From the NCBI GenBank assembly GCA_018242295.1, contig JAFECE010000003.1, forward strand, positions 186,001 through 250,000: DNA of 64,000 nucleotides. Reading direction: 5' to 3'. The stretch comes from Pseudomonadota bacterium. Lineage in GTDB: Bacteria; Pseudomonadota; Alphaproteobacteria; Rhizobiales; Hyphomicrobiaceae. Both the position numbers and the translations under genes were made by a program. Below are positions 41,487 through 58,667 of this stretch, in pieces (within the stretch, counting starts at the first letter, position 1; each line of letters opens with the position of its first letter). The notes under the pieces are model-generated. The model was not told the origin of the DNA, ran no database searches, and saw only the letters and a list, made by a program, of their open reading frames with translations.

Positions 41487-41667
41487 CGTGCAGGTGTCCT
41501 TGCCTAGATCCGCGGATTACTTGCCCTCAAGAAAGAACCAGCTCGCTGATCTCGCGCCGGCTCCGCAAAACTCCCGAAGTTTTTGATCTCTACTCGAACA
41601 GTTTAACCTAACACAATGTGTGGGAGTGTCTCATCGAAGCATGACAACAACGCGGACAGACCTTCGG

Positions 41668-43113
41668 CTAGCGACCGGTCCGGACGCCTTGTGGTAGTCC
41701 GCCCCTGCGAATTGGACCACTCTTTCGCATCGGGCCCTGCCTCCTGGCTGTTACGGGAATTGGCTTAGGTACGCGCGAATAGCGGGTGGTCTCAGCGGCA
41801 ACCAGCACAAAGAGAAACCACATCGGATCATTCGTCGACAACCACAGGGTTTCAATCAAATTCGTGATGGTGACATATAAAGCCAGCGAAAGCAGGATCC
41901 AGGCACGAAGCGGGTCCTGCCGTCGCACGCGCTCTATTGCATATAATGTCGCCATTATAAAAATGAGAAACAGCCAATATCCTATAATTCCGGTTTCGAT
42001 TCTAACATCGAGATAGCCGCTATGGCTACCGGTCATATGTTTTACCCAATATGGCGCCTGAGTTACGCTCGGGGCATCATTCCCGACGAGCCAAAACGAA
42101 CGGAACCCCCACCCAACCCAAGGCCTTTGGGCAATTTCCCTATATATGAAATCCCATATGACGGTGCGGCCAGTCAGCGTTGAATCGCCATAAATCATGT
42201 ACGAGATGCGGTTTACCAAGTTGCTGCTCGAGAACATCGATGCCGCGATGTAGGTCGCCGGGATTGCGAGCAAGACGAGAAGCGCTGAAACTCGCAGCTT
42301 GCCGCTCATCACGAGAGCCACTCCCGCGACACAGGGCGCAACGAGCATAAAGACCAACGAGCCTTTTGATTCACTCGCAAAGACCAGAAAAACGGCACCG
42401 ATGGCGACCAGGATGGCAACAAATCGCCTCCAACCTGGAAATAGGACCTCATAAAATGACAACAGAATTGCGACCGAGGCGCATTGACCGAGATACTGCT
42501 TAAAGCCGAAATAGCCAAAATATCCGAATATCGTTCCTTCAGGCGTCATCACCGGCTTCTGATTCAAAACGACAATGACGTTAATAAGTATTGCGAGCGC
42601 GTAGCACCAAAACAGGCTTCGCACCGTATCTCTTATTGGAGATCCCATCGCGAACGGCAAAATGATCGGCGTAAGAACCATCAACTCCAGGCAATATCTG
42701 TTGAAGGATATTTCCCTGCTGTATGCCCATGTGACGCTGGCGCCTGCGAACAGCAAAAACACAGCAAGGCTCATAATCGGCGGCGTCCGGAGGCGCGCAA
42801 AATTCAACCGCGGCCTATTGGCGAAGGCGAGCAGCAAAGTTGTCGCGAGCAGGGCCAACAGGAATGCCCTGTTTTCCCAGTCGGCAGTGGTCGTCCCTAG
42901 CGAGCTCGCGGATTGCTCAGCGGACGCTTTGATTGCGGGGGTCTCAAGGTATCCCAGCAGAGGGCGAAAGATCAGATACCAGCTGAAGAGAACGAACGGT
43001 AACGTCGCAAAAATCTTGCTCGTCAGTGGCGGGGGGTTCGGGCGAGCAAAAGCAACCAAGGTATTCTCTCCAGAGTGTCTTAGGTCCAGTCGACTGTAGA
43101 GCGCGCCGGCCAC
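41668..43113 (-). CDS. O-antigen ligase/polymerase family protein (Wzy candidate)
   Basis: A 481-aa membrane protein with about 11 helices. The Wzy/WaaL loop reads DSTLTGRTVIWDFI, then PWVGWGFRSFW and HMTGSHSGYLDVRIETG, with the conserved Arg and His of the family. As the only member in the window it is the best candidate for polymerase. The C-terminus is a basic tail rich in Arg, Pro and Gly. It starts with GTG directly after the stop of the aldo/keto reductase gene (no gap), so its expression is tied to the oxidoreductase genes upstream. Confidence 0.9.
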   Translation of the reverse strand: MAGALYSRLDLRHSGENTLVAFARPNPPPLTSKIFATLPFVLFSWYLIFRPLLGYLETPAIKASAEQSASSLGTTTADWENRAFLLALLATTLLLAFANRPRLNFARLRTPPIMSLAVFLLFAGASVTWAYSREISFNRYCLELMVLTPIILPFAMGSPIRDTVRSLFWCYALAILINVIVVLNQKPVMTPEGTIFGYFGYFGFKQYLGQCASVAILLSFYEVLFPGWRRFVAILVAIGAVFLVFASESKGSLVFMLVAPCVAGVALVMSGKLRVSALLVLLAIPATYIAASMFSSSNLVNRISYMIYGDSTLTGRTVIWDFIYREIAQRPWVGWGFRSFWLVGNDAPSVTQAPYWVKHMTGSHSGYLDVRIETGIIGYWLFLIFIMATLYAIERVRRQDPLRAWILLSLALYVTITNLIETLWLSTNDPMWFLFVLVAAETTRYSRVPKPIPVTARRQGPMRKSGPIRRGGLPQGVRTGR

Positions 43114-44136
43114 TCAATCGTAAACTGCCGGCTCTTCTTTCAATTCGTGGATGTGGCGACAGAGTTCGGCGTATTCCTGATTGGTCAAGTTTGGAGAACG
43201 GAAATAGCGCTGGTTATCCCTGAGATGATTCTCCGTGTGCATTCCAAGCAAGGTTACGCTGACAGCCGGCGTCGCACGACAGAATTGTAGCGCGCTATCG
43301 AGCAACGGGCGGCCCAGTTTCTCGCTGAGCGCCCGCAGTGCCAGGATGCGCCGCCACTTGGGTGTGGCGGCCTTCAGCGCATCTTCATCCAGGCCCTCTT
43401 TCAAGAGCCCGCCACCAAAACACCCGCGCGCGATCACCCCGAGACCTCGGGCCTCAGCGGCTGCCAGGATGCCCAGATCGAGCGCTTCGAGGTCGAGCAA
43501 TCCGAAGCCGAGTTGCAGAGAGGAGATACCGGGAGCCGACACGCAGAATGGGGCATCCTCCACCACTTCCGTTGCTACTCCGTAAAAGCGAAGCTTTCCC
43601 TGCCTTTTCAGCTTTTCCAGTGTTTCAAGTGCCTCACCGAAGGCACCGCTCTGAATGAAGGGCGCGCGCGGACTATGCAGCTGGTAGAGATCAACGTAGT
43701 CCGTTTGCAGACGTTTGAGGCTCGCCTCAAGGGCCGCCGTCAAATACGACGGCGAGAAGTCCTGCGACAGCGTTCCGGAAACGACCGAGGGCAATCTCGA
43801 TCGCTTCAAGCCCAGTGCATGCACGATCGGGCGGACGAGGGGTTTGATCCGCTGCATGAGCTTGCGCTGTGCGGGAAGGCAGTATCCGCCCTTTGTAGCC
43901 AGGACGACCTGCTGCCGCCGGCCGCGAAAGGCTTTGCCGATCAGGGCTTCGCTTTCTCCCTGCGCGTACATGTCGGCGGTATCGTAGAATGTGATACCCG
44001 AATCCAAGGACTTCTGAAGAACGTTCAGCGCTTCCTGGCCACCATTCTTATTTGCGAAAAACCCGCCGATCCGCGATCCACCAAAGCCGATCTCGGAAAC
44101 TTGCATACCTGTTTTGCCGAATTCATTGATCTTCAT
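43114..44136 (-). CDS. Aldo/keto reductase
   Basis: A 340-aa NADPH-dependent TIM-barrel oxidoreductase. The catalytic tetrad is visible as Asp52 and Tyr57 (DTADMY), the Lys of LATKGG and the His of LYQLHSPRAP. The final third has LLGMHTENHLRDN, the cofactor-binding end. Its place between a GMC oxidoreductase and a polymerase gene, with gaps of 9 and 0 bp, suggests reduction of a keto sugar or aldehyde in the polysaccharide pathway. Confidence 0.92.
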   Translation of the reverse strand: MKINEFGKTGMQVSEIGFGGSRIGGFFANKNGGQEALNVLQKSLDSGITFYDTADMYAQGESEALIGKAFRGRRQQVVLATKGGYCLPAQRKLMQRIKPLVRPIVHALGLKRSRLPSVVSGTLSQDFSPSYLTAALEASLKRLQTDYVDLYQLHSPRAPFIQSGAFGEALETLEKLKRQGKLRFYGVATEVVEDAPFCVSAPGISSLQLGFGLLDLEALDLGILAAAEARGLGVIARGCFGGGLLKEGLDEDALKAATPKWRRILALRALSEKLGRPLLDSALQFCRATPAVSVTLLGMHTENHLRDNQRYFRSPNLTNQEYAELCRHIHELKEEPAVYD

Positions 44137-44145
44137 GCGATGAAA

Positions 44146-45624
44146 TCAGCTGTGCTTCAGATCGCGAGCGAGGCGCGTTGCCGCCCGCGCCGCAATCGCC
44201 ATCACTGTCAGGGTTGGGTTCTTTTCAGCAGCAGTCGTGAAGCAAGCGGCATCGCAGACGAGTACATTCGGAGCGCGATAAACGCGGTTCCAAGCATCAA
44301 CGACACCGTATTCCGGCTTTTCGTGCATCCGGGCCGTTCCGCCATAGTGGGCGACGGTTCCAGGGAACAAGGTCGGGACGACCTCTCCGATCGTTGCGCG
44401 GCAACCCGCCTCCTCCAACACATCGAGGAGGTGCTGGCGGGCACGAACGACATTGTCCACTTCCGCATCACTGTAGCGAATGCAAACATCGAGGACGGGA
44501 AGTCCGAATTCATCTTTCTTTGTTGCCGACGGTTTCGCGACACACGTCTCCGTTGGGATCATCGTTCCGATCATCTGCACACCGACCGTCGTTCCTGCCT
44601 GACCGAAGCGGCTTCGAACGCGATCACTGATATTGGCCACTCCGAGCGTCCACGAGGTCGCCATGAGTGGCGGAGAGGTATCGTAAGGCAGGCGCGTCAG
44701 GTAAGCGGCGGGCGAGAGAAGTTTGAGGGGGCGCTCCATCTCGAAGGACCACCATTCGCGAGGGTGATCGTGCAGGAAGCGTCCGAGCAATCCCTCCGAG
44801 TTTCCGAGCCCTTCCGGGAAGTCCTTGGAGACCGAGTTGTGCAAAAGCTTTGCAGTTCCGAGCGGACCGCACGCAACGATCACCGCACTTGCTTCGATGC
44901 GTTTCGTCCCGCCCGAATGACGGTCGTGATAAAGCAGCCCGTCGACCTTCCCCTTCTCCGGAGACCACTCAAGTGACAACGCGTAGGCGCCGGTCACCAA
45001 GCGGAAATTTGGCGACTTGAGCAGAGGCGTCACAATGTTGGTGAAGCTATTGAAGGCGGTTCCCCGGCGGACGAGCATCGTCGGCGGACCGTCCGCGAGA
45101 GGATAGATCGTGAAGCCCTGGCCATGGCGGTTCGCCGCCCGTTCCACAACTTCCCAATCCTCCGGGATGCGGCGGTCATAAGCAGCATACCCGCCGGGTA
45201 GTTGGGGTTTATCGCGGCGATCGGCCGTGATTTCGAGAGATCGTTCGACCTTTTCGTAATAGGGCGCAAGATCCGTGTACGCGATTGGCCACCGATAGCG
45301 TTCGTGCAGCCTCTCGCCTTCGGTGAAATCCTCCGGCGCAAAGCGCGGTACAGCGCCGGTCCAGCAATTGGAGAGACCACCCGGCGCAAGCTTCGCGTAG
45401 CACACGGTTTGCGGATCACCCGAAACCGAATGGCCGCCCTCCTCCTGCAACGGGGGAGTACGACGGTAAAGATTCTTGCCACCCGACCGCACGAGCAGAC
45501 CAGGTTGGAAGCGCGTGCCCGCCTCCAGCATTGTCACGGAGATTCCGGCTTCCACGAGTTCGCGGGCGGCCGCCGCACCCGCCGGACCGCTGCCGACGAC
45601 CACGACCTGTCGTTCATCCTGCAT
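44146..45624 (-). CDS. GMC-family FAD oxidoreductase
   Basis: A 492-aa flavoprotein. VVVVGSGPAGAAAARELVEAG (7-27, shown here in part) binds FAD, LAPGGLSNCWTGAVPRF is the second GMC element, and the C-terminus has AHYGGTARMHEKPEYGVVD and EKNPTLTVMAIAARAA. The family oxidises sugar or alcohol hydroxyls. It lacks a signal peptide, so it acts in the cytoplasm, perhaps on a nucleotide- or lipid-linked sugar. It lies 9 bp after the PhyH gene and 9 bp before the aldo/keto reductase. Confidence 0.92.
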   Translation of the reverse strand: MQDERQVVVVGSGPAGAAAARELVEAGISVTMLEAGTRFQPGLLVRSGGKNLYRRTPPLQEEGGHSVSGDPQTVCYAKLAPGGLSNCWTGAVPRFAPEDFTEGERLHERYRWPIAYTDLAPYYEKVERSLEITADRRDKPQLPGGYAAYDRRIPEDWEVVERAANRHGQGFTIYPLADGPPTMLVRRGTAFNSFTNIVTPLLKSPNFRLVTGAYALSLEWSPEKGKVDGLLYHDRHSGGTKRIEASAVIVACGPLGTAKLLHNSVSKDFPEGLGNSEGLLGRFLHDHPREWWSFEMERPLKLLSPAAYLTRLPYDTSPPLMATSWTLGVANISDRVRSRFGQAGTTVGVQMIGTMIPTETCVAKPSATKKDEFGLPVLDVCIRYSDAEVDNVVRARQHLLDVLEEAGCRATIGEVVPTLFPGTVAHYGGTARMHEKPEYGVVDAWNRVYRAPNVLVCDAACFTTAAEKNPTLTVMAIAARAATRLARDLKHS

Positions 45625-45633
45625 GGCTTTTGC

Positions 45634-46467
45634 TTAGTACTCTTTGTCCACGAGAGAGCGAGCAAAGCGAAGCGCCGAATAGGTAACGGGCACCTTTACG
45701 AACAACTCCTCGCGAATCCGTCCTGCCCTCGTCGGCTTGAACCAGTTCGGGAGGAATTTGATCTTCCCGCCCTCGGCTGCAAACGGATCTGCAAGGTTGT
45801 TGCCGCCGTCCTCCCAAGTCATGGCAAGCATCGGACGCGGGACTTTAGTACGGTTCGCCGTCCCGCGATGCCAGACGTTCGAGGTGCGGACCAGCACGTC
45901 CCCGCGCTTCAACGGAACGCGCACGGCCTTGCGTGCGACGCCCTCCAGGACGAACTGCGTATATTTATAAAAGCGTTTATGAGTCCCCGGGATTGCCTCC
46001 ATCGCGCCATTCTCGATCGTCGAGTCGACGACCGCGACGTTGGCGATCATGAAGTCCCGCGTGAACGGACGGTCGAGGTGATAGTGCTGCGTGTGGCTGC
46101 CAGGCAGATTGAAGTTGCACCCGACATTCGGCATGCGAACAACGCGGGGATCCAGCTCCTTGATCAGGTCTATGATCCCGCGTTCTTGCAGCGTGTCGTA
46201 GACGAACCGCGCACCGGCGCCAGGGAAGCAGTTGAGATGGCCGCTTTTCAGACCGCCGCCCGAGAACAACGCGCCCGACTTCGATTGCGCCTCGAATTCC
46301 TGCTCGAGGGACTTATGCAATTCGGCCAGCCGCTCCGGCGAGACGACATTGCGAATGACAAAGTAGCCATCGCGGGCAAACGCCTGCTTCAGATCTTCTT
46401 TTTCAGCTGCGGTGAGTGGACCAGCTTTTTCACCTGCCGTTCGTGCACCGTCATCAACTGTCAGCAT
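45634..46467 (-). CDS. Phytanoyl-CoA dioxygenase (PhyH) family protein
   Basis: A 277-aa Fe(II)/2-oxoglutarate dioxygenase. The iron facial triad is His130-x-Asp132 (HYHLD) and His200 (WHRGTANRTK), with the following Arg able to bind 2-oxoglutarate. DGYFVIRNVVSPERL at the N-terminus is typical. It should hydroxylate or oxidise an unactivated carbon, possibly on a sugar or lipid carrier. It overlaps the upstream glycosyltransferase by 7 bp and precedes the GMC gene by 9 bp. Confidence 0.9.
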   Translation of the reverse strand: MLTVDDGARTAGEKAGPLTAAEKEDLKQAFARDGYFVIRNVVSPERLAELHKSLEQEFEAQSKSGALFSGGGLKSGHLNCFPGAGARFVYDTLQERGIIDLIKELDPRVVRMPNVGCNFNLPGSHTQHYHLDRPFTRDFMIANVAVVDSTIENGAMEAIPGTHKRFYKYTQFVLEGVARKAVRVPLKRGDVLVRTSNVWHRGTANRTKVPRPMLAMTWEDGGNNLADPFAAEGGKIKFLPNWFKPTRAGRIREELFVKVPVTYSALRFARSLVDKEY

Positions 46468-47699
46468 CGTGGACCTCCGTCAACTCCCAATGAATTCGGA
46501 ATGTTTCGCAGCGTTTCGCCTCTGGATGCGGCGACGAGATTTTCGTAGCGCATCGCCACTTCGCGACACTGCTGGCGCGGCGTAAAGCGGAGCCGGATCG
46601 TTTTGCGGGCGTGCTCGCCCAATCGCCGGCGGAGTTCCGGATCGCCCATCAACGTCGCGATTTCCCTCGCGACCGCCTCGGCGGAATGCTCCTCCACAAG
46701 CAGCCCGTCGACGCCATGCGTAATGATTTCGGGAACGCCGCCTGTCCCACAGGCTATGACCGGCTTCTGCATCGCCATTGCTTCGGCGATCGAAAGTCCG
46801 AAGGGCTCCCCATAGGACGGATGCACGAACAGATCGAACTCGCGGAGAAACGGCCGGACATCTTTTTGGAATCCGCCGAAATGGAGGCGATCCGCGATGC
46901 CACCCTCGCGCGCCCTCTTTTCAAAGTCCGCCCGGACTTCAGGCACATCGGAGCCGAGTATCATGATGTGCAGATCGGGGTGCGTCTCTCGCAGGAGTGC
47001 CACCGCACCAATAAGCTCAAGCTGTCCCTTCCACGGATTCATCCGGGCGGCAATTCCCAGGAGCGGCGCATTCTCAGGAATGCCGAACTGCGCGCGAATG
47101 TTCGCCGAGCCCGCAAGTTCTTTTTGAGGATCGAAGTGATCGGTATCGACGGCGTTATAGATCGTATGGATTTTTTGCAGATCCATTCCCATACGGCCCA
47201 GTCCATTTCTTATGTAGTCCGAGATGGCGAATATCGCTTTGGCATTGCGCATTCCCCAAAGTGTCGGGCCGGTGTGATAATCGCCGAGGTGTGAATGCAT
47301 GTGCACGACAGACGCGGCCCCGGTCACGCGCCCGAGCAAGCTCGCATAGCTTGCATCCCTCGGCCGGTCCGTGGCGTGAATGATTTGTATGCGGTTGCGC
47401 TTGATAAACGCGGCAGCCTTCGCCAATGACGCAGCACTCGGTCCATAGGCCAGCGCTTTGCCCAGTATGCCTCTACCCGCCAGCGCGCCGGCGGGCTTCC
47501 CAAGCGGCAGGAACGCACTCGATACATTCGGCATTCCGGCGAAGCGAACCCGCATCTCTTCCGCATCGACCGCCTCACTGTTGGAGAGGACGAAGACCTC
47601 AGCTTCATCCGGCGCGAAGTTGGCCATGAGCGACAGATGCACAGCAACGTCCGCACCGCACTGATCGCGCGTATTTAAGAACAGTACACGGACTGGCAT
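46461..47699 (-). CDS. Glycosyltransferase family 4
   Basis: A 412-aa GT-B enzyme. VLFLNTRDQCGADVAVHLSL forms the acceptor side, VHMHSHLGDYH and IYNAVDTDHFDP follow, then GIAARMNPWKGQ and HPSYGEPFGLSIAEAMAMQ with the E-x7-E donor motif, and GVPEIITHGVDGLLVE. It heads a tight leftward operon with the PhyH, GMC, aldo/keto reductase and polymerase genes. Its sugar is unknown. Confidence 0.94.
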   Translation of the reverse strand: MPVRVLFLNTRDQCGADVAVHLSLMANFAPDEAEVFVLSNSEAVDAEEMRVRFAGMPNVSSAFLPLGKPAGALAGRGILGKALAYGPSAASLAKAAAFIKRNRIQIIHATDRPRDASYASLLGRVTGAASVVHMHSHLGDYHTGPTLWGMRNAKAIFAISDYIRNGLGRMGMDLQKIHTIYNAVDTDHFDPQKELAGSANIRAQFGIPENAPLLGIAARMNPWKGQLELIGAVALLRETHPDLHIMILGSDVPEVRADFEKRAREGGIADRLHFGGFQKDVRPFLREFDLFVHPSYGEPFGLSIAEAMAMQKPVIACGTGGVPEIITHGVDGLLVEEHSAEAVAREIATLMGDPELRRRLGEHARKTIRLRFTPRQQCREVAMRYENLVAASRGETLRNIPNSLGVDGGPRC

Positions 47700-48311
47700 A
47701 TACAGAGCCCAGACGATCGATTTAGTTTGGTTATTCCTATAATGCGTTTACTTGACATTCTCTCATCAGGGATGACGGTCTGTCTCGCGACTTCTCATCC
47801 CTCCCGACGATAGCAATCTTCCAATCCGCCGTCGTCGCCTCAATTGCGTTTTCTGATGGATGTCAAATGTCTTGCTTATTTTCCTAATGGCGGCGTCGTC
47901 AGGTCCGCAAAGTTGCCAATCCAGAAGGCATCAGGCCGCTAAATCGGATTCAGCGAGACGCTCGTGAACCCGCTCGATGATTTGACGTCTGCAGATCGAA
48001 CGGGAAATCCCACTCCTCATTTTTCCAAACGCTTTTGCGGATTTCCTCTCCTCGTCGGCAGTTAGCAGCAAAAAGATTGAAGAATTGACTGTAAGCCGGA
48101 TTTACGCCGGCAAAGCGCCCTTTCTTTCTGGAAAGTTAATTGCCCAATGGATGATCCTGAGCATGTAATTCCAGTCCTTTAATGGCTGGATCGCGGCGCC
48201 CTAGGGACAATGTCGACCGACCGCAGATGCTAAATCGCGGCAAGCGCGGCCGCCTTACGGCGTGGTGAATAGCCGGTGCGATATGCAATGCCTACAAACA
48301 GAACCGGCGTA
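47700..48311. other. 612-bp intergenic region
   Basis: This gap lies upstream of the leftward GT4 operon and downstream of the leftward BNR lipoprotein gene. It should contain the promoter of the GT4 operon; TATAGG near 47739 on the minus strand is a weak -10 candidate. No ORF with recognisable features, no RNA gene and no terminator that I can defend. Confidence 0.35.
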
Positions 48312-49445
48312 TTACGGCTCGACGTAGCGCCATAGTCCTGTGGCCCACATCGAGCCGACAAAGATGTTGTGCGTGCCGTCGGACGTTACCGCGACGCTGT
48401 TCGGGCCCCAGACGAGGCCTTCGGGCAGCCCCGTTTCCTTGGTCCAGGCGCCGTGATCGCCCGGCTGCGGTGCTGTCTGCAGCTTTGGACCTCCCTCCTT
48501 GAGTCCACAGCTTGCACATGCCCAGCCCCACATGGCGTAGACAGTTTTCGCTGAGCCCCATACGACCGCGGCATCGCCATCGGTAACGCGCGTCCAGTTG
48601 GCGCCGAGATCGACGCTGCGATAAACGCCGTGCCCCGCGGACGGCCGCCAGCCGCCGATGAACAGCGTTCGGCCCGTTTGGTAGAGCTGTGAGCCACCGT
48701 GCGGATGCGTCAAACCTTCGATGCCGTTGGGCTTCGTCCAGGTCGCGCCGCCGTCACTGGTCATAACGGCCGAACCGCTGCCCTGCGGAATGGCGAACCA
48801 AGTCTTGCGTGTCGTCGCAGCCTCCCCCGTCTCGACGAAGTATGGGAACCACGATACGCCGCCCGTTGGCCAGCCGGCGCCTGACACGAACCTCCATGTT
48901 TCGCCGCCGTCCGTCGACTCGGCGAGGCGATCAGCTTCATGAAAACCCGTGATCAGGTGTGATGGATCGTGCGGGTCGACGACGATCGAGTAGAAGCTCG
49001 AATCGTATTTTTCCGGCAGCAATCCCGTGAGCCGAAAGGTCAGACCACCGTCGATCGACTTGAACACCTTCTGATCGCCATTGACGTTCGCCATCCAAAG
49101 CGTCGCGGGCGTCGTGCCCGCTATAGCCAGCACGTGGCCAAGCGGCTGGTACGGCGGATTGGGCCGGCTAGGAATCTGCGCCCAGGTCTTTCCATAGTCC
49201 ATCGATTTCCAGATTGATCCATAGCCGCCGACGTAAAGATCGCTCGGCCGCGCCGGATCAACGACAATGTTACCCACGCCAAAGCCGTCCGGGCCCTTAA
49301 AAAGCGACGCCGGCATCTCCGGCGAAGTCACATTTTCCCAGACACCCCGCGCGGTCTGCGACTTCCCCTGACACGCGGTGAGCACGAAGCAAATGAAGAG
49401 AATTGTCAGGCTCTGGTTCAGGCGAGCAAATCGGTTATTGGCCAT
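48312..49445 (-). CDS. Lipoprotein with BNR/Asp-box beta-propeller
   Basis: About 377 aa. A lipoprotein signal (LFICFVLTAC, Cys25) is followed by a propeller with repeated Asp-box-like turns: SMDYGKTW, SIDGGLTF, STDGGETW, TSDGGATW and SVDLGANW. Such folds occur in sialidase-like and xyloglucanase-like enzymes and in binding proteins; catalytic residues were not assigned. It may bind or cut the polysaccharide at the cell surface. The frame is open to 49469, but GGGGAG five bases before the ATG at 49445 decides that start. It ends the leftward UbiA-HAD-GtrA group, 70 bp after GtrA. Confidence 0.85.
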   Translation of the reverse strand: MANNRFARLNQSLTILFICFVLTACQGKSQTARGVWENVTSPEMPASLFKGPDGFGVGNIVVDPARPSDLYVGGYGSIWKSMDYGKTWAQIPSRPNPPYQPLGHVLAIAGTTPATLWMANVNGDQKVFKSIDGGLTFRLTGLLPEKYDSSFYSIVVDPHDPSHLITGFHEADRLAESTDGGETWRFVSGAGWPTGGVSWFPYFVETGEAATTRKTWFAIPQGSGSAVMTSDGGATWTKPNGIEGLTHPHGGSQLYQTGRTLFIGGWRPSAGHGVYRSVDLGANWTRVTDGDAAVVWGSAKTVYAMWGWACASCGLKEGGPKLQTAPQPGDHGAWTKETGLPEGLVWGPNSVAVTSDGTHNIFVGSMWATGLWRYVEP

Positions 49446-49515
49446 TTTGCTCCCCAGGAAGCGGATCATGAGTTCGTGCTCGATAGAACGTCGTTCTCGA
49501 TCGTGGCGAGAGCCA

Positions 49516-49908
49516 TCAAGGCGCGGGGCCCAAGTCTCGAGGCGGGGTCCGGAAGACCCAAAGCAGATTGATAAAAAAATTGCCGACGAACGCGGTGCCG
49601 ATGCCGATGATCTTGGAGAGCATCGGCGCGATGCCGATCAGCGTGGCGCAGATCAAGGTAACGCCGACGTTGATGGAAAGTCCGACGGCGGCGCCAAGCA
49701 GAAACTGCACGAACCGGCCTCTGCTCGCGGCTTGCTCGAAAACAAAGCGGCTTGTCAGGTGATAATTGACGAACGCGGCGATGAGCCAGCTGAGGCTCGC
49801 GGCAATTGCGATCGGCAGTCCTGCATCCAGCAGAACGTGAAATCCGGAAACGTCGACGATGGCTGCGACACCTCCGGTGCCGATATAGCGGACGAATTTG
49901 GAGATCAT
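49516..49908 (-). CDS. GtrA family membrane protein
   Basis: A 130-aa protein with four membrane helices and the GtrA pattern: FVRYIGTGGVAAIVDVSGF, FVNYHLTSRFVFE, GLSINVGVTLI and GNFFINLLWVFR. GtrA proteins move or support polyprenyl-phosphate-linked sugars at the membrane. The ATG overlaps the stop of the HAD gene by 4 bp. In mycobacteria a GtrA-like protein (Rv3789) works beside the decaprenyl-phosphoryl arabinose genes, a parallel to this group. Confidence 0.92.
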   Translation of the reverse strand: MISKFVRYIGTGGVAAIVDVSGFHVLLDAGLPIAIAASLSWLIAAFVNYHLTSRFVFEQAASRGRFVQFLLGAAVGLSINVGVTLICATLIGIAPMLSKIIGIGTAFVGNFFINLLWVFRTPPRDLGPAP

Positions 49909-50606
49909 CCCGGCGACCGTTCGAACAGGGGCGCGAACAGCGCGTCAGAGTACGTTGAGAAGTGCAGCCAGCCATTGAGCGGCCGGGCGGAGCGGATGAG
50001 GGCCGTCGCTCCGGCGCGGCGTGCCGCTGCACCATCTCTCTCGATCCGGTCGCCGATGAGGATCGTCTCGGCGGGGCTGGCTCCAGCGGCATTCATGAGC
50101 ACTTCGAGGCCCCGAGGATGTGGTTTAAGGATTCCGACATTGGCATCGCCCGCAGCAACCACGTGGTCGGCTGCAAGTCCCATCGCACTCAGCTTGTCGA
50201 GTGCAGGATAGTCCGAGAAGATGCCGATTGTCTTCCCCTTGAGCTTCAATACCGAGAATAGCTCGACAATGTTCGGATAGCGACAGGCGCGGATGTGTGC
50301 GAGCGGACGCTTCTCCATCCACTCGGCGACGATGGTGCGAACCGTCGCCGGATCGACCCTGTTCGCCGCTGCCGTACGCGCGACCAAAACGTCCTCGAAG
50401 CTGGCGATTTCATCGTCGCCTGCGCTCTCACGAAGCTTGCGATACGTATGAAGGACGCGCAATGCAGTCAGACTGCGCGTCTCAACCACGTTGCCTGCGA
50501 TCTCGCGCAACATACGCAAGCGCATGGCCTTCTGATCGTACAAAGTTCCATCAACGTCGAAGGCGACGAGGCGAATAGAGCTCCAGTCGATCTTCAAGTC
50601 GTTCAT
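49905..50606 (-). CDS. HAD-superfamily phosphatase
   Basis: A 233-aa HAD hydrolase. Motif I FDVDGTLYD has nucleophile Asp17 and acid Asp19; IGIFSDYPA is motif II; KPHPRGLEVLM holds the motif III Lys; LIGDRIERDGAAARRAG is motif IV. It overlaps the UbiA gene and the GtrA gene by 4 bp each. Its likely job is to remove the 5-phosphate from the polyprenyl-phosphoryl phosphopentose made by the UbiA enzyme; this is an inference from context. Confidence 0.92.
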   Translation of the reverse strand: MNDLKIDWSSIRLVAFDVDGTLYDQKAMRLRMLREIAGNVVETRSLTALRVLHTYRKLRESAGDDEIASFEDVLVARTAAANRVDPATVRTIVAEWMEKRPLAHIRACRYPNIVELFSVLKLKGKTIGIFSDYPALDKLSAMGLAADHVVAAGDANVGILKPHPRGLEVLMNAAGASPAETILIGDRIERDGAAARRAGATALIRSARPLNGWLHFSTYSDALFAPLFERSPG

Positions 50607-51586
50607 TGGATCGTGATGTAGCGCTGCTCGGCGAGCGTTTCCAGGAACGGTATGTTGACAAAGCTCGTGAAGAGAAATGTTGCAACCAACGCCAACACGA
50701 TCAGGATGAGCCCGGACTCGCGGAAAAGCTTTTCAGGCTTTTGAGCAGACGATCCGGGCAGCGTCGACATCGAAAAATAGGTGGTGAAGAGCAGCACGAC
50801 GATCGGAATGATGAGCACGAATTCGATGCGGTACTTCACCAGGAAGACGGTGAGAAAAAAGACCGAGAGCAACGAATAGGCGAAGCAGGAGGCGGTCAGC
50901 GATGTTTCTGTGTACTGTGCGAAGCTGGCGCGGTAGCGCACCAGGAGATCGAGCCCTTTAGACGCGACAATTTCGCGATATTCGGAAAGGCGTTTCGCGG
51001 CCATGAGGAAGGCACCGCCGAACCAGTACGATAGGATGATCGATCCCGGGGGCAGCGACGTCGGGTCAATGATTGCCCAACCGATCACGAGGCGGATCGG
51101 ATTGTTGATCGATTCCGAAATCACATCGAGGTAGGCTTTGTCTTTGCTCCTCAGCGGATTGACATTGTAGACGACGCCCTGCACCGCAAAGAGAAATGCG
51201 ACAAAGAACATGAGTTCGCTCGACAGCGCCGCGCAGGTGAGGCCAGCGGCGACGAGGAAACCCCATTCGAGCGCGACGATCGGGCCGCTCATGACCTTTT
51301 GCACGGCCGCACGCTTCGACTTGTCGGGGTGGTGCTTGTCGAAATCGCGATCAAGCCATTCATTGATCACGTAGTTGGCCGAGGCGATGCAGATCGCGGT
51401 GACAAAGCCAAGCACCAGCGACAGAAGAAGGTGGTCGGTGCGAACGCCGCGAAGCAAGTACGCGAGAATGATGCCCGGAACGATGAAGATGTGCTTGGTG
51501 CTATGATCGAGCCGGGCGATCGCAAGGTATTCCTTGAAACCGGCCTGTTGCGGCACGTCGACCGGTGAGCTTTCCGACAAGACCAT
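50603..51586 (-). CDS. UbiA-family polyprenyl-phosphate phosphoribosyltransferase-like
   Basis: A 327-aa membrane enzyme with about nine helices. NEWLDRDFDKHHPDKSKR carries Asn75, Asp79 and Asp83 (NxxxDxxxD) followed by HPxKxxR, the pattern of decaprenyl-phosphate phosphoribosyltransferases rather than of quinone prenyltransferases. YNVNPLRSKDKAYLD gives the second Asp-rich region. It should move a phosphopentose from PRPP to a polyprenyl phosphate. Mycobacterial Rv3806c and Azorhizobium NoeC are known relatives. It is coupled to the HAD and GtrA genes. Confidence 0.88.
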   Translation of the reverse strand: MVLSESSPVDVPQQAGFKEYLAIARLDHSTKHIFIVPGIILAYLLRGVRTDHLLLSLVLGFVTAICIASANYVINEWLDRDFDKHHPDKSKRAAVQKVMSGPIVALEWGFLVAAGLTCAALSSELMFFVAFLFAVQGVVYNVNPLRSKDKAYLDVISESINNPIRLVIGWAIIDPTSLPPGSIILSYWFGGAFLMAAKRLSEYREIVASKGLDLLVRYRASFAQYTETSLTASCFAYSLLSVFFLTVFLVKYRIEFVLIIPIVVLLFTTYFSMSTLPGSSAQKPEKLFRESGLILIVLALVATFLFTSFVNIPFLETLAEQRYITIQ

Positions 51587-51641
51587 GAATTAAGATCTTT
51601 CCTTTCGTGCGCCGTTCAAGTGGATGACTGCCGCGATCGCG

Positions 51642-52913
51642 TCAGGCCACCGCCTCTGATGATTTCGGTGCGGAAGTTATCGTGCCTCGCCTCTCCAAGA
51701 GCGTGTCAACGCCGAATGCCGCCATAATCGTCAGCAACGGCAGTATCGGCACAGAATAGCGCCCCAGAGGAATCAAGATCGCCACGAGGACGTTCATGAC
51801 CACGATCGGAACCCAAAGCAGCCAGGCCGGTCGGCCCTCGCTGTGGGACCTACGCCACCCGATGAACGCCAGCACCCAGCCGATGATGGCCAACACGGCT
51901 GGGACCAACGAATTCGGCAAGGACGTCATCTCGTACCAGAACGTGAAAAATCCGACGAAGATCTTGCGGGCCGTGTCGAGCGGCTCAGTAACAATCATTT
52001 GCTTGGCGACACGTGCGTTGTTCGCCTCGTCGACAACCTCGTCGGCCTCCCACGTGGTGCCGGCATCGCTGGCGATTTTCCGGAACCACGCATTGGATTC
52101 ATTCTCGGCGTCGGTATACGGGGGCTTTTGCAGCGTGGCGAACTCCATGCGCGTGAAGATGTAACCACGCAGGAAAGAGTCGCTCGACCCCGGCGTCAGG
52201 AGCACAAACTTACCGCCCGTGACTTGATAGTTTCGATACGTCCAAGGCGCCAGAATAAGCGCCATGGTTACGAAAATGGCGCCTACTGCGATGACTTCCT
52301 TGACCGAACGGCGTTTGATGGCGAGCACAAAGCTAATGATGCCGAACACGACGACGAGGGGCAGGATCACACCCTTCGCCAGCGTCCCCATCATGCCGAC
52401 CGCACCAAGCAGGATACCGTTAGCCACGGTCGATTGGTCGTGAAAGCGGACTGAGAACCAGACCGTCAGCACGCAGAGGAACGTCAAGAACGTTTCGAGG
52501 TGCAAGTCTGCCACGTAGCGCAAAAGCATTGGATGCAGAGCGCAAATGAGCCCGGCCAGCAATCCTGTTCGCGCGTTGTAGAGACGCTTTCCAAGCGAGT
52601 ATACGAGCAAGCACGTGCCTGCGTGCAGGAGACATTGCAGGAGCACGACGGTAAAATTGCTACCGCCAAGCCGATATATTACGGCGATGACCTCCACGTA
52701 GAGCGAGGCGCCCCTGCGGGTCAATTTCGTAAAACCATGGTCGATAAGTCCGCGCGCGAGGTCGCCGTACTGATACGGGTCACCAGCGTTCGCGACAAAG
52801 GTCTGCAGGCGGAAGACGCCGAAGACCATGGCCAGCGACGCAGCCAGCGCAACGACGGCAATGATGAACGGGTAATTGGCGTACAGGGGGCGGGTGTTCG
52901 TCGTGGCAATCAT
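51642..52913 (-). CDS. GT-C (PMT/ArnT-like, GT39/83) glycosyltransferase
   Basis: About 423 aa with 9-11 membrane helices. The first outer loop has DPYQYGDLARGL, with the acidic residues common in enzymes that use polyprenyl-phosphate sugars; ALHPMLLRYVADLHLETF and LIPLGRYSVPILPLLTIMAA follow. It should act at the outer face of the inner membrane. The frame is open to a TTG at 52976; the ATG at 52913 after GAGATAG is preferred. It lies 55 bp before the UbiA gene and is the natural user of the lipid-linked sugar made by that group. Confidence 0.88.
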   Translation of the reverse strand: MIATTNTRPLYANYPFIIAVVALAASLAMVFGVFRLQTFVANAGDPYQYGDLARGLIDHGFTKLTRRGASLYVEVIAVIYRLGGSNFTVVLLQCLLHAGTCLLVYSLGKRLYNARTGLLAGLICALHPMLLRYVADLHLETFLTFLCVLTVWFSVRFHDQSTVANGILLGAVGMMGTLAKGVILPLVVVFGIISFVLAIKRRSVKEVIAVGAIFVTMALILAPWTYRNYQVTGGKFVLLTPGSSDSFLRGYIFTRMEFATLQKPPYTDAENESNAWFRKIASDAGTTWEADEVVDEANNARVAKQMIVTEPLDTARKIFVGFFTFWYEMTSLPNSLVPAVLAIIGWVLAFIGWRRSHSEGRPAWLLWVPIVVMNVLVAILIPLGRYSVPILPLLTIMAAFGVDTLLERRGTITSAPKSSEAVA

Positions 52914-53312
52914 ATCTATCTCGATGTCTCGACGATGCGTATGACGTCTGACGTCCGATACGTTTGCGGATCCCAAGACATCGCCAACTTAAGGTCCTTT
53001 TGTAACAAGAATGAAACGCAGGTTAAGCGCGGTATTCCTGGACAATGCCGGCGATGGCTGCCCCAATTTGCGGCTCGTGCCATTACATAAGCTATTCGCC
53101 AGGTCGTCGCCCCAGTAAAAGCGCAAAAACGTAAATAATGGTTCCGCTGAGACTCCAATTGGCTGATTGCCAATTCGTCAGTCAGTATCAACGCGGCTTA
53201 TCGAATTAACCGGCGCAAATCGATTACTTTGGTAATAGTGCCGCCCGCGGCTTCGCGTGTACAGACAATCGTTGCGGCGTACTGCTTACAATTTGGGCAG
53301 ACGACGGCAGTG
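52914..53312. promoter_or_regulatory. Upstream region of the GT-C/UbiA operon with inverted repeat
   Basis: A 399-bp gap. A perfect inverted repeat at 53157-53175 (AATTGGC, TGATT, GCCAATT) lies about 245 bp before the GT-C start and 138 bp after the end of the upstream GT2 gene. It could be an operator or, less likely, a weak terminator. No gene was seen. Confidence 0.4.
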
Positions 53313-54521
53313 TCAGCTCCGGTCTGTTCTCACCCAGGTCGTGGCGCGGTTACCTGCCAGAATGCGAACGTACTGAACCAGCTTCGAGTAAACGTAAGGA
53401 ACGATCGACAGCAAGGATCTTGGCGGCAAGGCTTCGCGCCCATAACGAGCCCATGCGAAGACGATGCTCAGCGCCAATCCGGCAATGGCTGAGCAACTGA
53501 TATAAAAAGGAACGAGTGATAGGCCCAAAACCGCTCCAGTTGCCGTGATCGCGAAGACCGCCGACAATAATAGAACGAGAAGAAAAATGGGTGGCACGGC
53601 CAAGTCCAGGGCCATCGCCATCAATCGCAAATCGCGGCTCGCAAATGCCGACGATAAAACACGCGGAACCGTAGAGAAAATCAGCTCTCGATGGCCCTGC
53701 TCCCAACGCTGCTGCTGCGTATTCCGTCCGTGTACAGATGACGCAAAGCAGCTTGTTACGACAGCCGACGGACAAAATAGTGGCAAGTGGCCTTTCAACG
53801 CGAGCTCGAGTCCAAGCTTCAAGTCCTCGGTCAGCGCCCCGGTTGCGAGATTGGCCGCGTTCAAGGTACTCCACGGAAATGCCATTCCCGTGCCGACCAG
53901 CTGACAAGGGAGACCGAGGTTCGCGAGACCGAGTGGACGCACCCAATTCTTCAAGCGCCACGTGAATTCCGATACCTGCTCGTTGACGGATGAACCATCC
54001 GGCGCATGCATCAGATAAAGGGCTTGAATTGGCCGTCCGGCTGCGGACGCACGTTCAGCCAGAGTATCGATGGCGCCATTTTCCAGGCGGCAATCGGCAT
54101 CGACGATAATCACGACCTCAGGTGGCGTTTCCGAGAGATGCCGAATTCCATAGTCAAGAGCGTGACCTTTTCCGCGGTTTTGTTCATCTCGGCGTTCGAC
54201 GACTTCCGCTCCCGCCGAACGGGCAACCTCCGCGGTATCGTCTGAACAATTATCTGCGACCACCAGCAGACGATCACGCGGGCCGATCTCAGTCAAAATG
54301 TCAGTCAATGTCGGAAGGATGCTCACGCTCTCATTGTGAGCGGGAACGAGTACGGCCAGGGACGGTCTATTGGAATTGGGCTTGCGCTCGGAATTTCTTT
54401 TCGAAAGCGCTGCCAAAACTTCAATTAGAAGAACGACAACGGGAATACTTACGAGTAACGCAACCGCGCCCAGGGCTCCCGAAACGAATGCAGCGGCGAC
54501 AGACATTTCGTGGGAAACCAT
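53313..54521 (-). CDS. Membrane glycosyltransferase family 2 (cellulose-synthase-like)
   Basis: A 402-aa processive-type GT2. One helix near the N-terminus (about 10-35), then LAVLVPAHNESVSILPTL, LLVVADNCSDDTAE, IIVDADCRLENGAI (DxD), TEDLKLGLELAL (TED) and QQQRWEQGH (QxxRW), then two or three C-terminal helices. All catalytic motifs are in place. It may extend the chain or add a side branch. A second start five codons in is possible. Confidence 0.93.
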   Translation of the reverse strand: MVSHEMSVAAAFVSGALGAVALLVSIPVVVLLIEVLAALSKRNSERKPNSNRPSLAVLVPAHNESVSILPTLTDILTEIGPRDRLLVVADNCSDDTAEVARSAGAEVVERRDEQNRGKGHALDYGIRHLSETPPEVVIIVDADCRLENGAIDTLAERASAAGRPIQALYLMHAPDGSSVNEQVSEFTWRLKNWVRPLGLANLGLPCQLVGTGMAFPWSTLNAANLATGALTEDLKLGLELALKGHLPLFCPSAVVTSCFASSVHGRNTQQQRWEQGHRELIFSTVPRVLSSAFASRDLRLMAMALDLAVPPIFLLVLLLSAVFAITATGAVLGLSLVPFYISCSAIAGLALSIVFAWARYGREALPPRSLLSIVPYVYSKLVQYVRILAGNRATTWVRTDRS

Positions 54522-54651
54522 CAGAAGCTATTCATCTCAATGCGGAATTCGCCAACGCACCCCTCATACGCCCTTAAACACCGCGAAAAAGCACGATAGC
54601 CGCCTTCAGTGTACATATTATTATCGGAGATCCTAGCGCAACATTCCGCGT

Positions 54652-55410
54652 TTACGAACGAAATCGCGGATTCATCATTTGGGCGACGACCAAACCGAAT
54701 ATTTTCGGGCCTTTAACCAGGTATCGCTTCGCGAGACGCTTGGGATCCGACAAGAGGCGATGCAACCACTCGAGGCCCGAATTCTGAATCCAGAGCGGCG
54801 CACGCTGCTGTTTTCCAGTAAGAAAATCAATCGATGCACCGATACAAAGAGCCACTCCCCTTGCTTCGGGGTATTCAAGGAGCCGGTGCGCCAAGATTTC
54901 TTGCTGCGGCGATCCAACGGCCAGGAAAGTGATGTCGGCGTTCGCATCCAAAATGAACGCGATGCATTTCTGGACCTCGACATCGGACTTAATAAATCCC
55001 ATCGGCGGCGTATAGGACGCGATTTCGAGGCCGGGAAAACGGCGGCCGAGGATTGCGCAGTCGTCGGCGCTCGGCCCGATGATTCCGACTTTCAGCCCGA
55101 GACCCGAGGCCCGTTCCAAAAGGCGGGCGGTAAGATCGCTGCCGGTTACGACATCGAGCTTCGAACCGCATAAATACGCCAATTTTCTCAGTACCCGACT
55201 GTCGCAGTATATGCGCCATGCGCCGGTGTATTTGGCTTTGAGTGCGTCGCCCTGCTCGTAAATCTCGACGACATGTTGCACGTTGGGGGTGACGACGTAT
55301 CTGAACGGCTGTCCAATTGCACCCAATATTTCGTCTATTGCCGTTTCAGTCGAACCGCTGTTGAATTTCAGGCCAAGAAAATTGGCTATATTGGACGCCG
55401 TCATTTGCAC
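54652..55410 (-). CDS. WecG/TagA/CpsF family glycosyltransferase (GT26)
   Basis: A 252-aa GT26 enzyme. VTPNVQHVVEIYEQGD, RIYCDSRVLRKLAYLCG, VTGSDLTARLLERAS, FLAVGSPQQEILAHR and CIGASIDFLTGKQQRAPLW then GLEWLHRLLSDPKRL are the conserved family blocks. These enzymes add a ManNAc- or uronate-type sugar to a lipid-linked first sugar, so this may be the second step after the priming transferase. An ATG two codons in is an alternative start. Confidence 0.94.
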   Translation of the reverse strand: MQMTASNIANFLGLKFNSGSTETAIDEILGAIGQPFRYVVTPNVQHVVEIYEQGDALKAKYTGAWRIYCDSRVLRKLAYLCGSKLDVVTGSDLTARLLERASGLGLKVGIIGPSADDCAILGRRFPGLEIASYTPPMGFIKSDVEVQKCIAFILDANADITFLAVGSPQQEILAHRLLEYPEARGVALCIGASIDFLTGKQQRAPLWIQNSGLEWLHRLLSDPKRLAKRYLVKGPKIFGLVVAQMMNPRFRS

Positions 55411-55500: not shown

Positions 55501-56301
55501 CTATGCGGGAATTCCAGTCACGTCTTCATATCGCCGAGATGCCTCAACGAGTTCGGAAAGGGCTGCCATGGTAGCTGCCGACTGGAACTCATGTTCACCC
55601 ACAGAGATTCCGTACGTCTCTTCAACCGCAAGCAAAAGGCGAAGTGCACCGAGCGAGTCCCATTCGGGGATCTGGTCGGGACCATCGGTCATTGCAGGCA
55701 AAGCCGAAAGGCCAAGCACGCTTTGGACGAGTTGCGATAATCCGACATCGCCACCCGCCGCCGCTTCGCGCACGGCGCGCGCGGGAACTCCGCGTGCCGT
55801 TTCTCCGGCGGCAATGTGACCGGAGACCATACTGCCACTGAGAATTGTGGCACCATCACCGATGGTGGTGCCCCTCAGAATCGCTACGCGTGCGCCGATC
55901 GTCACGCTACGTCCTATCGAGATAGGTCCTGTGTCGCCCGGCGCGTCGCGATCCCCCGGGCGATGAAAGTCGCTATCCATGATCTGGACGAAGGGGCCAA
56001 TCCGCGTGTCATCACCGATTTCAACTTTATCCAGCGCCGCGATGGCTGCTCCGTAGGAAATGTGGACGCGATCTCCCACGCGCACAGTCCCGCCGTTGAT
56101 GGCAGCGATATGGGATTGGACAGGATCGGAAGAAAAAGAAAAATCCTCACCGATCGTGATCTTGCCGTTGTTGATGATCGTCGGCTTGCCCTTCAGCGAC
56201 GGTCTTGCACCAATGCGATCGACGGCCCGCATCCAATGCTTGATACGCAGGCGCTGCAGCGCATCTCCGGCGGTAGAGCGGATGTCTTTCACTTCTGCCA
56301 C
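55501..56301 (-). CDS. Hexapeptide acyltransferase fused to acyl carrier protein
   Basis: A 266-aa two-domain protein. Residues about 30-180 form a left-handed beta-helix acyltransferase (ITIGEDFSFSS, VEIGDDTRIGPFVQIMDSDFH with the usual His, GARVAILRGTTIGDGA). Residues about 187-255 form an acyl carrier protein; EWDSLGALRLLLAVEE holds Ser216, the expected phosphopantetheine site. Its start overlaps the end of the FkbH-like fusion by 13 bp. The ACP should carry the acyl group activated by that enzyme, and the beta-helix should pass it to the polysaccharide. The reaction is inferred from both domain sets. Confidence 0.88.
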   Translation of the reverse strand: MAEVKDIRSTAGDALQRLRIKHWMRAVDRIGARPSLKGKPTIINNGKITIGEDFSFSSDPVQSHIAAINGGTVRVGDRVHISYGAAIAALDKVEIGDDTRIGPFVQIMDSDFHRPGDRDAPGDTGPISIGRSVTIGARVAILRGTTIGDGATILSGSMVSGHIAAGETARGVPARAVREAAAGGDVGLSQLVQSVLGLSALPAMTDGPDQIPEWDSLGALRLLLAVEETYGISVGEHEFQSAATMAALSELVEASRRYEDVTGIPA

Positions 56302-58667
56302 TCGAGATTGACCACATCAGGCAACGCATAGGCCCGGGAATTGTCCCAGACGAATTCGTGGTCGCCTTCGTTCGTGAAGCCGGAATTCTGCCAGAACGTC
56401 AAACATGGCTTATTCTTCGCGGTGGGAATGTATTCGGCGACAACGCGCTTCGCCCCTCGCTCGATCGCGGCGGCCACTGCGACATGGACGATCGTATCCT
56501 CCACACGCCGGCCCATCACGCGGCAGCTGAGGACGAAATCAACGACGTGCGCTGTACCGCCGTCAAACTTCATACCGAGCAGACCAGTCAGACCTGCATC
56601 GCCCATACGGTCCGAGACGTTCACAACCCAAAACGCGTTATCTGGCTCCGCCGCCCAATCGATCAATTCACGCTCCGTCAACCGCCGTGTCGTCAAGTTG
56701 AGCTGGTTCGTCTTATTCAAGAGCTGGGCGGCCCTGGTCGATGTCGTTGAACTCAGCGGTGCGATTGTGACTTTGATCTCGAGCGTTTTAAGCCACTCTT
56801 CGATCGAGCCGACTTGCTGGCGCAATGCTTCGCGTTGTGTCTCCTCGTCGTACATCCGTGTACGCTCGGCATCCTCGCGGGTCAGAGCCGCCGCATCGAA
56901 GCAACTCAGATTGCGCAGATAACTGGCATAGAGAAATTCTTCCTTCGGCCATTCCGGGACGTAAACTTCGGGGAGTGCCTCTCGCACCCGCGCGCGCTCG
57001 ACCGGATTATCATCGATGAAGACGACCGACTGGAGACCGAGGTTCAACGACTGCGTCAGCTCAGCGACGTTTCGCGCTTTGTCGGTCCAATTGATTTTCC
57101 AACCGACGAAGTCCTCCTCTTTCAGAACCATGGAGGGATTGTTGCGAATAGCCTCGAGCGCGACCGACTCTTCGTTCTTGCTGACGATGCCCAGAACGAC
57201 GCCGCGCTTTTTCAAATCCTTGACGGCTTTTTGAAAGTCGACGAATGCCTCACCACTGGCGTCCATGCCACCGAGTTTCAGGCCTACCCAGCCCACGTCT
57301 CCGACAATGCCGCCCCACATCGTATCGTCGAGATCGAGGATGAGCAGCTTTCGGGGACCGTTCGAAAGAGACGCGAGTGCGGCGCGCATATCGCGAGCTG
57401 CTTCTGCGAGCACGGGTCGGGCGAAAGCAATCTTTCCGAGATACCAAGCCTTGGGATTGAAAGCTGCGGGACCAACTGCGGCCAGCCACCGCGATGCGTC
57501 CAAGACATAGACGTTCGAGATGCCGGACAACCGCTGCATCAGTTGAGCATTCATGCGCACGAGCGCGGACGACACACCGCCTTTTCGCGTATCGAGCATG
57601 CCAAGTCCGCGCTGCCAGCTCGGCATCGTCCAGCTCGGAACGAATACACTGCGATAGAGGGGCGCGGCCTTTTCAACCTTCGCGCAAAACGCGTCCACCT
57701 CGGCCTGCAGTGCGTCATCATCAATGGGCTCGAATGCCAGAAGCTTGGCGAATGAAGGAACGGCTTTCTGTGGCTGTGTCCAGACAACGGCAAAGTCGGC
57801 GGCATCGGGAGGCGGCGGCGAGAGCAATGACTGCGTCACCTGATCGAACGGCGCGACGCGCGCGCCGACGCCGGAATGCACGTCTGAGACGCCAAGCTCA
57901 TTGCTCAGCTCATCAATCGTGAAATCGGAGATCAAATAGCCGTTGATTTTTGGCTTGCTGACCGGATGCGCAAGATCTGGAGCGATGCTGCCTAGCGCCG
58001 GCGCGGTCTTCGCAACGCTTGCGCCAACGGTTTGAACGGAAGTTTTCGCATCCGTTTCGGTTTCGCCAATTCTCGAAATGGGCCGCGCCGGAATTCCTCC
58101 GGCGATGACGCCTGGGGGGATGTCACTTTCGACGATGCTCCCGGCCATGATTATGGCGCCCTTGCCGATCTTCACTCCAGGGCGCACGGTCACTCTGACA
58201 GCCAACCACGCGTCGTCGCCTATTTCAACGGGTTGTGTCTGCTCCCTTGCATTATCGACGGGCATATCCGGATATTGGCTGTCCGCAATAATGCAGTACT
58301 GCCCAATCATCACACGATTGCCGATAGTGACTTTGTGGTGCGCAGATATCAAAACGCCGAAATTGATCCAGACGTCGTCGCCAATTGAGATTTGAGCTTC
58401 TTTCCCGGCGATCAGCTCCGTCGGAACCCAGCGCGACAAGATGAATACGCGGCGACCAATTTGGATCGAGCCACGATTTTCAACGCGTATCCGGCCTTGG
58501 ATACGGCCCCCGGCGCCCGTGACCTCGCAATTCCACAAATACCAAATCGCCCGGACTCGCTCGAAGACGCGGATAAAGCCTTTGCCGAGCAAGCCGCCAA
58601 TTCTCGAGCTAACGACATGCGCACGTGCGCGGCTGACGAAGGTGGCAGCAATATCTTCGTTGGTCAC
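56289..58667 (-). CDS. Hexapeptide acyltransferase fused to FkbH-like HAD-IIIC/GNAT protein
   Basis: A 792-aa fusion. The N-terminal part (about 45-200) is a beta-helix acyltransferase (IQIGRRVFILSRW, VTIGNRVMIGQYCIIADSQY, GVKIGKGAIIMAGSIV). After a linker and an FkbH-type N-terminal part (about 300-435) comes the HAD-IIIC domain with LDLDDTMWGG near 445, VLGIVSKN and VVFIDDNPVER. NKTNQLNLTTRR near 650 and a GNAT-like end (GDAGLTGLLGMKF) complete the FkbH layout. FkbH proteins load a glyceryl group from 1,3-bisphosphoglycerate onto an ACP. The start is GTG after GAGG. The ACP-acyltransferase gene follows and overlaps it. Confidence 0.9.
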   Translation of the reverse strand: MTNEDIAATFVSRARAHVVSSRIGGLLGKGFIRVFERVRAIWYLWNCEVTGAGGRIQGRIRVENRGSIQIGRRVFILSRWVPTELIAGKEAQISIGDDVWINFGVLISAHHKVTIGNRVMIGQYCIIADSQYPDMPVDNAREQTQPVEIGDDAWLAVRVTVRPGVKIGKGAIIMAGSIVESDIPPGVIAGGIPARPISRIGETETDAKTSVQTVGASVAKTAPALGSIAPDLAHPVSKPKINGYLISDFTIDELSNELGVSDVHSGVGARVAPFDQVTQSLLSPPPPDAADFAVVWTQPQKAVPSFAKLLAFEPIDDDALQAEVDAFCAKVEKAAPLYRSVFVPSWTMPSWQRGLGMLDTRKGGVSSALVRMNAQLMQRLSGISNVYVLDASRWLAAVGPAAFNPKAWYLGKIAFARPVLAEAARDMRAALASLSNGPRKLLILDLDDTMWGGIVGDVGWVGLKLGGMDASGEAFVDFQKAVKDLKKRGVVLGIVSKNEESVALEAIRNNPSMVLKEEDFVGWKINWTDKARNVAELTQSLNLGLQSVVFIDDNPVERARVREALPEVYVPEWPKEEFLYASYLRNLSCFDAAALTREDAERTRMYDEETQREALRQQVGSIEEWLKTLEIKVTIAPLSSTTSTRAAQLLNKTNQLNLTTRRLTERELIDWAAEPDNAFWVVNVSDRMGDAGLTGLLGMKFDGGTAHVVDFVLSCRVMGRRVEDTIVHVAVAAAIERGAKRVVAEYIPTAKNKPCLTFWQNSGFTNEGDHEFVWDNSRAYALPDVVNLEWQK

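Follow-up and report, generated by a model that had tools for sequence, protein, structure and literature searches.

The DNA considered here, hereafter the window, is a 64,000-nt stretch of a Hyphomicrobiaceae genome (GCA_018242295.1, contig JAFECE010000003.1, positions 186,001 to 250,000), in which two overlapping minus-strand genes each fuse a hexapeptide, left-handed beta-helix (LbH) domain to one partner of an acyl-loading system within an exopolysaccharide (EPS) locus. The LbH1-FkbH gene (56289-58667) encodes a 792-amino-acid (aa) protein with an FkbH enzyme, while the LbH2-ACP gene (55501-56301, 266 aa) carries an acyl carrier protein (ACP). The pair thus encodes a loader and its carrier, both joined to domains that resemble sugar acyltransferases, and probably serves to attach a small acyl group, with glyceryl as the best guess, to an EPS sugar; the route by which glyceryl and similar hydroxyacyl groups reach bacterial polysaccharides is, to our knowledge, poorly understood. 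Both open reading frames (ORFs) lie where the original prediction placed them, with the domains it described and a 13-bp overlap; an in-frame second GTG at 56292 would give a 4-bp GTGA overlap instead, and the junction is ATGA in three other loci (L060, L144 and L165).

The FkbH part is complete, comprising an N-terminal domain (approximately aa 241-436, 57360-57947, from the AlphaFold2 model and Foldseek), a HAD-IIIC domain (approximately aa 437-595, 56883-57359, TIGR01681 60.8 bits) and a GNAT-like domain (approximately aa 630-775, 56343-56780, from residue conservation and Foldseek), all on the minus strand. The HAD motif residues D445, D447, T449, S496, K497, D552 and D553 are present, as is the invariant Cys715 in SCR, and the TIGR01686 score of 285.9 bits is well above the curated cut-off of 146.65 (L060 283.6, L144 only 30.8), in keeping with the FkbH-like HAD-IIIC/GNAT enzyme first proposed. 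D445, D447, T449, S496, N498, D552 and C715 are identical in the window and in all 102 other FkbH rows aligned, and K497 in 100 of the 102; the rows were partly picked by LDLD..T, NFxGWKIN-like and NKTNQ motifs, so that positions within those are biased, with S496, K497, N498, D552 and C715 not picked for. The nearest solved structure to the model of the whole FkbH protein is 3slr (BF1531; Foldseek E 1.6e-22).

Both hexapeptide domains pass PF00132 (cut-off 27), LbH1 (approximately aa 55-205, 58053-58505) with 40.7 bits and LbH2 (approximately aa 33-180, 55762-56205) with 46.4 bits, both on the minus strand. The ACP domain (approximately aa 187-262, 55516-55743, minus strand) scores 20.5 bits with PF00550, just under the cut-off of 20.8, with orthologues above it (22.2 in the related genome G014, 23.5 in L060); a PF00550 search of the window's own genome (G000) gave six matches, the ACP of the gene pair not being among them. 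In the AlphaFold2 model this part forms ACP-like helices (188-196, 216-230, 236-241 and 245-262), and the carrier serine, Ser216 in WDSLG (55654-55656), is present as predicted and starts one of them. Foldseek ranked ACPs first to third for this part (TM 0.72-0.76 of target, E 0.015-0.045), none of them at E <= 0.001.

The original prediction counted two transferases in the pair, a number that the sequences do not bear out. In an alignment of 17 hexapeptide domains, LbH1 has Pro in all five pairs found at the position where LbH2 has His (5/5), as do LbH3, a third hexapeptide gene of the window, and the domains of L110 and L132. This is His113 of LbH2 (DSDFH, 55963-55965), the position at which Vat and related enzymes use a His, while the corresponding stretch of LbH1 reads ADSQYPDM. 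Of the other four domains, which show a gap or a different residue at this position, some carry a His two or three residues before it; LbH1 has no His at those places, and in a separate four-row alignment no LbH1 His is invariant. LbH1 thus retains the hexapeptide repeats and lacks the His, whereas LbH2 has both; LbH1 is probably not a transferase, and LbH2, through His113, is the one likely transferase predicted for the pair. Because LbH1 is conserved as well as LbH2, a structural role for it is suggested.

Among the genomes searched the pair was seen only in G000 and four others (G014, G710, G795 and G861). LbH2-ACP queries were run against 299, 246, 396 and 397 genomes and LbH1-FkbH queries against 60, 385 and 148, in overlapping draws, with some searches scoring only the best few candidates per genome. 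In G014, of the same genus, LbH1-FkbH and LbH2-ACP are 91 and 89% identical to the window, and L060, the locus of G710 (uncultured proteobacterium bin-559), has a complete pair at approximately 57% (56-58%) and 44%, identities which argue that the fusions are not chance joins. By domain, identity between the window and L060 is highest in HAD (74%), followed by GNAT (64%), the FkbH N-terminal domain (55%), LbH1 and LbH2 (51%) and ACP (42%). It had been suggested that the two fusions be sought together across genomes and alongside EPS loci: the pair recurs in the four other genomes and has an EPS setting in the window and L060, but two of the pairs, in G795 and G861, are decayed. A scan of an 84,980-species collection gave at least 594 stretches and at least 391 relatives, the best 80 of which were kept as FkbH loci; more pairs may exist, because these counts are lower bounds and the patterns used would miss decayed FkbHs. 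On plasmids no LbH-ACP or LbH-FkbH fusion was found, none of 900 and none of 238 matching records covering 80% of the query, and viral contigs, searched with the LbH2-ACP profile only, held no relative. The two-gene module is real, conserved and rare.

In a tree of 104 of the 106 aligned FkbH rows, from which the decayed G795 and G861 sequences were left out, the FkbHs of the three complete pairs form one clade (support 100) within a 16-row clade (support 100) that spans several phyla. The other 13 rows of that clade are the nearest unfused FkbHs, with an ACP directly upstream in 10, two loci cut by contig ends and one ambiguous, and, judged from these neighbourhoods, the likeliest origin of the fusion is therefore an adjacent pair of ACP and FkbH genes. 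More widely, 61 of the 80 loci (the best 80 of at least 391 relatives), archaeal ones included, have an ACP no more than 3 kb from FkbH, 17 have an LbH and 14 have both, all lower bounds as every locus was kept, even the several truncated by a contig end; this count used models of ACP and LbH that were built from the same loci, and L060 is among the 14, as is L074 (see below). The archaeal (Nitrososphaerota) FkbH-ACP pairs of L072, L073 and L079 have a hexapeptide gene approximately 100 bp away on the opposite strand.

The decayed pairs separate the parts of the module. In both G795 and G861, T449, S496, K497, N498 and D553 of FkbH are all changed and the whole Cys domain is gone, the HAD residues left being D445 and D447 in G795 and D447 and D552 in G861. 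The carrier Ser is also lost (WTAIG and WQPLG), and PF00550 does not match these proteins at E up to 1. The genes are otherwise open and retain LbH1, LbH2 and the LbH2 His (DIDYH and DNDFH). HAD identity falls from 74% between the window and L060 to 39-42% in the three comparisons with decayed genes (window-G795, L060-G795 and L060-G861, the window-G861 pairing being left out), while in the same comparisons LbH1 is at 50-58% and LbH2 at 47-51%, against 51% between complete pairs. The loss of FkbH motifs, Cys domain and carrier Ser together ties the loader to the carrier, and the two are, on this sequence evidence, evolutionarily coupled; by the same token, LbH1 and LbH2 can persist once both are gone.

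The fusion genes stand at the head of a minus-strand run of EPS genes, the rest of which (40893-55410) encodes WecG, GT2, PMT_2, UbiA, HAD, sortilin/VPS10-like, GT4, PhyH, GMC, AKR, Wzy and LbH3 proteins by Pfam and has the same gene order in G014, at 81-95% identity. Elsewhere the window has two flippases, glycosyltransferases, AT3 and sugar genes, Poly_export, Wzz/AAA and a sugar-phosphate transferase. By gene content the window is an EPS locus whose gene order is kept in G014, as the original prediction had it, and in L060 EPS genes likewise lie nearby. A 4'-phosphopantetheinyl transferase (PPTase; 12080-12763, minus strand, PF01648 and PF17837) is a possible activator of the ACP, with four PF01648 matches in the genome as a whole, three of them above the cut-off. 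The UbiA protein resembles decaprenyl-phosphate phosphoribosyltransferase, although its 53.8 bits fall short of the 234-bit cut-off. Together with HAD, GMC oxidoreductase, AKR and PMT_2 genes (43114-52976) it has the appearance of a pathway for polyprenyl-phosphate pentose within the EPS locus. The locus also holds a GH9 glycosidase (36850-38886) and an apiosidase-like protein (16540-18084), and the window a Cj1295-family gene (32981-34318; PF16254, PF09940, PF16221; DUF4910).

Two features of this setting allow other routes for the acyl group. A one-module polyketide synthase (PKS; KS-AT-KR-DH-ACP-TE, 4449-10895) shares the window with the PPTase, and the module could feed it rather than the EPS. 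This is very improbable: the PKS is approximately 45 kb from the module, the L060 ORFs scanned include EPS export genes and no PKS, and among the window ORFs scanned (not every ORF was) there is no FkbI/FkbK-type dehydrogenase and no FabH-like protein, the partner of FkbH and ACP in the glycerate-utilisation operon of tetronates. The second feature is the pair of PF01757 (AT3) membrane acyltransferases at 31290-32399 and 34315-35457, either of which could make the final transfer from a glyceryl-ACP formed as proposed below, with LbH1 and LbH2 acting as scaffold only. The L060 pair adjoins an AT3 gene 41% identical to 31290-32399, with EPS export and GT2 genes farther off, and in Sinorhizobium meliloti (L172, 815-5849) an MBOAT, an ACP and an FkbH lie near one another, and the annotation shown names no LbH gene among them. 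Such a transfer is nonetheless unlikely, since in all five pairs the LbH to which the ACP is joined still has its His and the window AT3 genes are at least 20 kb away on the other strand.

We favour, with a probability of about 0.5, the view that the pair is a self-contained unit that loads an acyl group and transfers it to decorate the EPS. The PPTase would place phosphopantetheine on Ser216 of LbH2-ACP, and FkbH would accept a hydroxyacyl group of three carbons, for which D-glyceryl derived from 1,3-bisphosphoglycerate is the likeliest candidate, with the HAD domain removing the phosphate and the acyl group being handed via Cys715 to the ACP. LbH2, carrying the ACP at its C-terminus, would then transfer the group in cis via His113 to a hydroxyl or amino group of an EPS sugar precursor. 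LbH1, its catalysis probably lost, would serve as a trimerising scaffold keeping the FkbH loader near the LbH2-ACP trimer.

Several observations weigh against this scheme. LbH1 and LbH2 are equally conserved after the loss of FkbH and the ACP Ser, such that LbH2 may work without the ACP, for example with acetyl-CoA. This is the main evidence that LbH2 is an ordinary acetyl-CoA O-acetyltransferase, with FkbH and ACP doing a separate, dispensable job, and among solved LbH structures the nearest are those of galactoside O-acetyltransferase, maltose O-acetyltransferase and similar sugar acetyltransferases, enzymes that use acetyl-CoA. We nevertheless regard a CoA donor as improbable: the three complete pairs all retain the ACP on the same chain as LbH2, and L074 (Phycisphaera sp. 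RI_212) joins LbH, FkbH and ACP in a single 911-aa protein (1397-4132), which argues that the LbH uses the carrier. The losses in G795 and G861 are probably one shared event, each of these genomes carries another FkbH gene, and the change at position 496 in G861, to Thr, is mild. The AlphaFold2 models (pLDDT 77.4 and 79.7, pTM 0.61 and 0.49 for the two proteins) are of middling confidence and silent on assembly.

Further difficulties concern the acyl group itself. The Cj1295-like gene, a possible marker for glycerate, occurs in two of seven genomes (G000 and G014), being absent from G710, G795, G861, G180 and G250 (E <= 1e-20), and in none of the 80 FkbH loci with flanks up to 8 kb; a glycerate link through this gene was accordingly rejected, leaving a weak hint only. 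Some of the nearest FkbH relatives, in L063 and L071, adjoin MaoC or MaoC-SDR genes by Pfam, which hints at other acyl chemistry. Instead of glyceryl, the load could be, for example, a different short acyl group taken from an acyl phosphate, the substrate not being fixed by sequence alone. Against such a load, which we consider possible but doubtful, the listed active-site residues match those of the FkbH of a Streptomyces FabH-FkbH-ACP cluster, and FkbH enzymes of polyketide pathways are taken to use 1,3-bisphosphoglycerate (PMC7489565). Glyceryl is our best guess for the load. The rival explanations overlap, and their odds do not sum to one.

A bolder version of the favoured unit, offered tentatively and as rather unlikely, makes LbH1 a pseudo-acyltransferase forming mixed or stacked trimers together with LbH2, with three FkbH loaders and three tethered carriers around one active LbH2 core. 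It would be a polysaccharide acylation machine with its own carriers, and the G795/G861 lineage would have lost the functions of loader and carrier and returned to a free donor. If the favoured scheme is true, a compact two-gene unit of loader, carrier and transferase would give a testable route and a marker for finding such polymers, with the decayed pairs a natural experiment separating loader and carrier from transferase.

Comparison with known systems places the module among familiar parts. LpxA and LpxD are left-handed beta-helix transferases that use acyl-ACP and a catalytic His, with a separate ACP loaded by fatty acid synthesis. LbH2 shares the beta-helix, the His and, as proposed, the acyl-ACP donor, but is far under the LpxD cut-off (31.2 against 242.5). 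The S. meliloti locus likewise brings loader, carrier and acyltransferase close together, differing in its membrane MBOAT, the lack of a hexapeptide transferase and the lack of fusion. The L074 protein has the same three kinds of domain as the pair, but only one LbH, of another type (by inspection like serine acetyltransferases), with P450-like and AMP-ligase-like ORFs as neighbours, again by inspection; its FkbH is a long branch that attaches immediately outside the 16-row clade (support 90, the position being uncertain), and the protein is probably a separate fusion.

In polyketide pathways the accepted product of FkbH is glyceryl-ACP, on the basis of in vitro work. For tetronate and methoxymalonate pathways, the formation of glyceryl-ACP is attributed to FkbH, with the wording 'likely' for the cluster studied (PMC7489565). 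These FkbH/HAD-IIIC loaders (tetronate and methoxymalonyl-ACP; Mad7/Mad8 and Mad14/Mad12) have the same FkbH family, the same conserved residues (Streptomyces FabH-FkbH-ACP cluster) and a dedicated ACP, whereas the genes in the window differ in their EPS setting and in their two hexapeptide domains, one N-terminal to FkbH and the other joined to the ACP. In Campylobacter jejuni, an FkbH-domain gene, cj1302, belongs to the flagellar glycosylation locus (PMC7099621), and the flagellin glycan carries di-O-methylglyceric acid on pseudaminic acid, which needs Cj1295 (PMC3068675). The likeness lies in an FkbH gene within a surface-glycan locus and a Cj1295-family gene, also present in the window; the available text of these papers mentions no fusions and does not assign glycerate formation to cj1302, and three of the pair-bearing genomes lack the Cj1295-like gene. 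The idea was thus less isolated than first supposed, FkbH with ACP being common (61 of 80 loci), once beside an MBOAT, with an FkbH-domain gene in the C. jejuni locus, but the pair of fusions, in line with the original prediction, was not found described in a search of open-licence PMC papers. The chemistry belongs to a known kind, of which the two fusions together form a new and rare variant.

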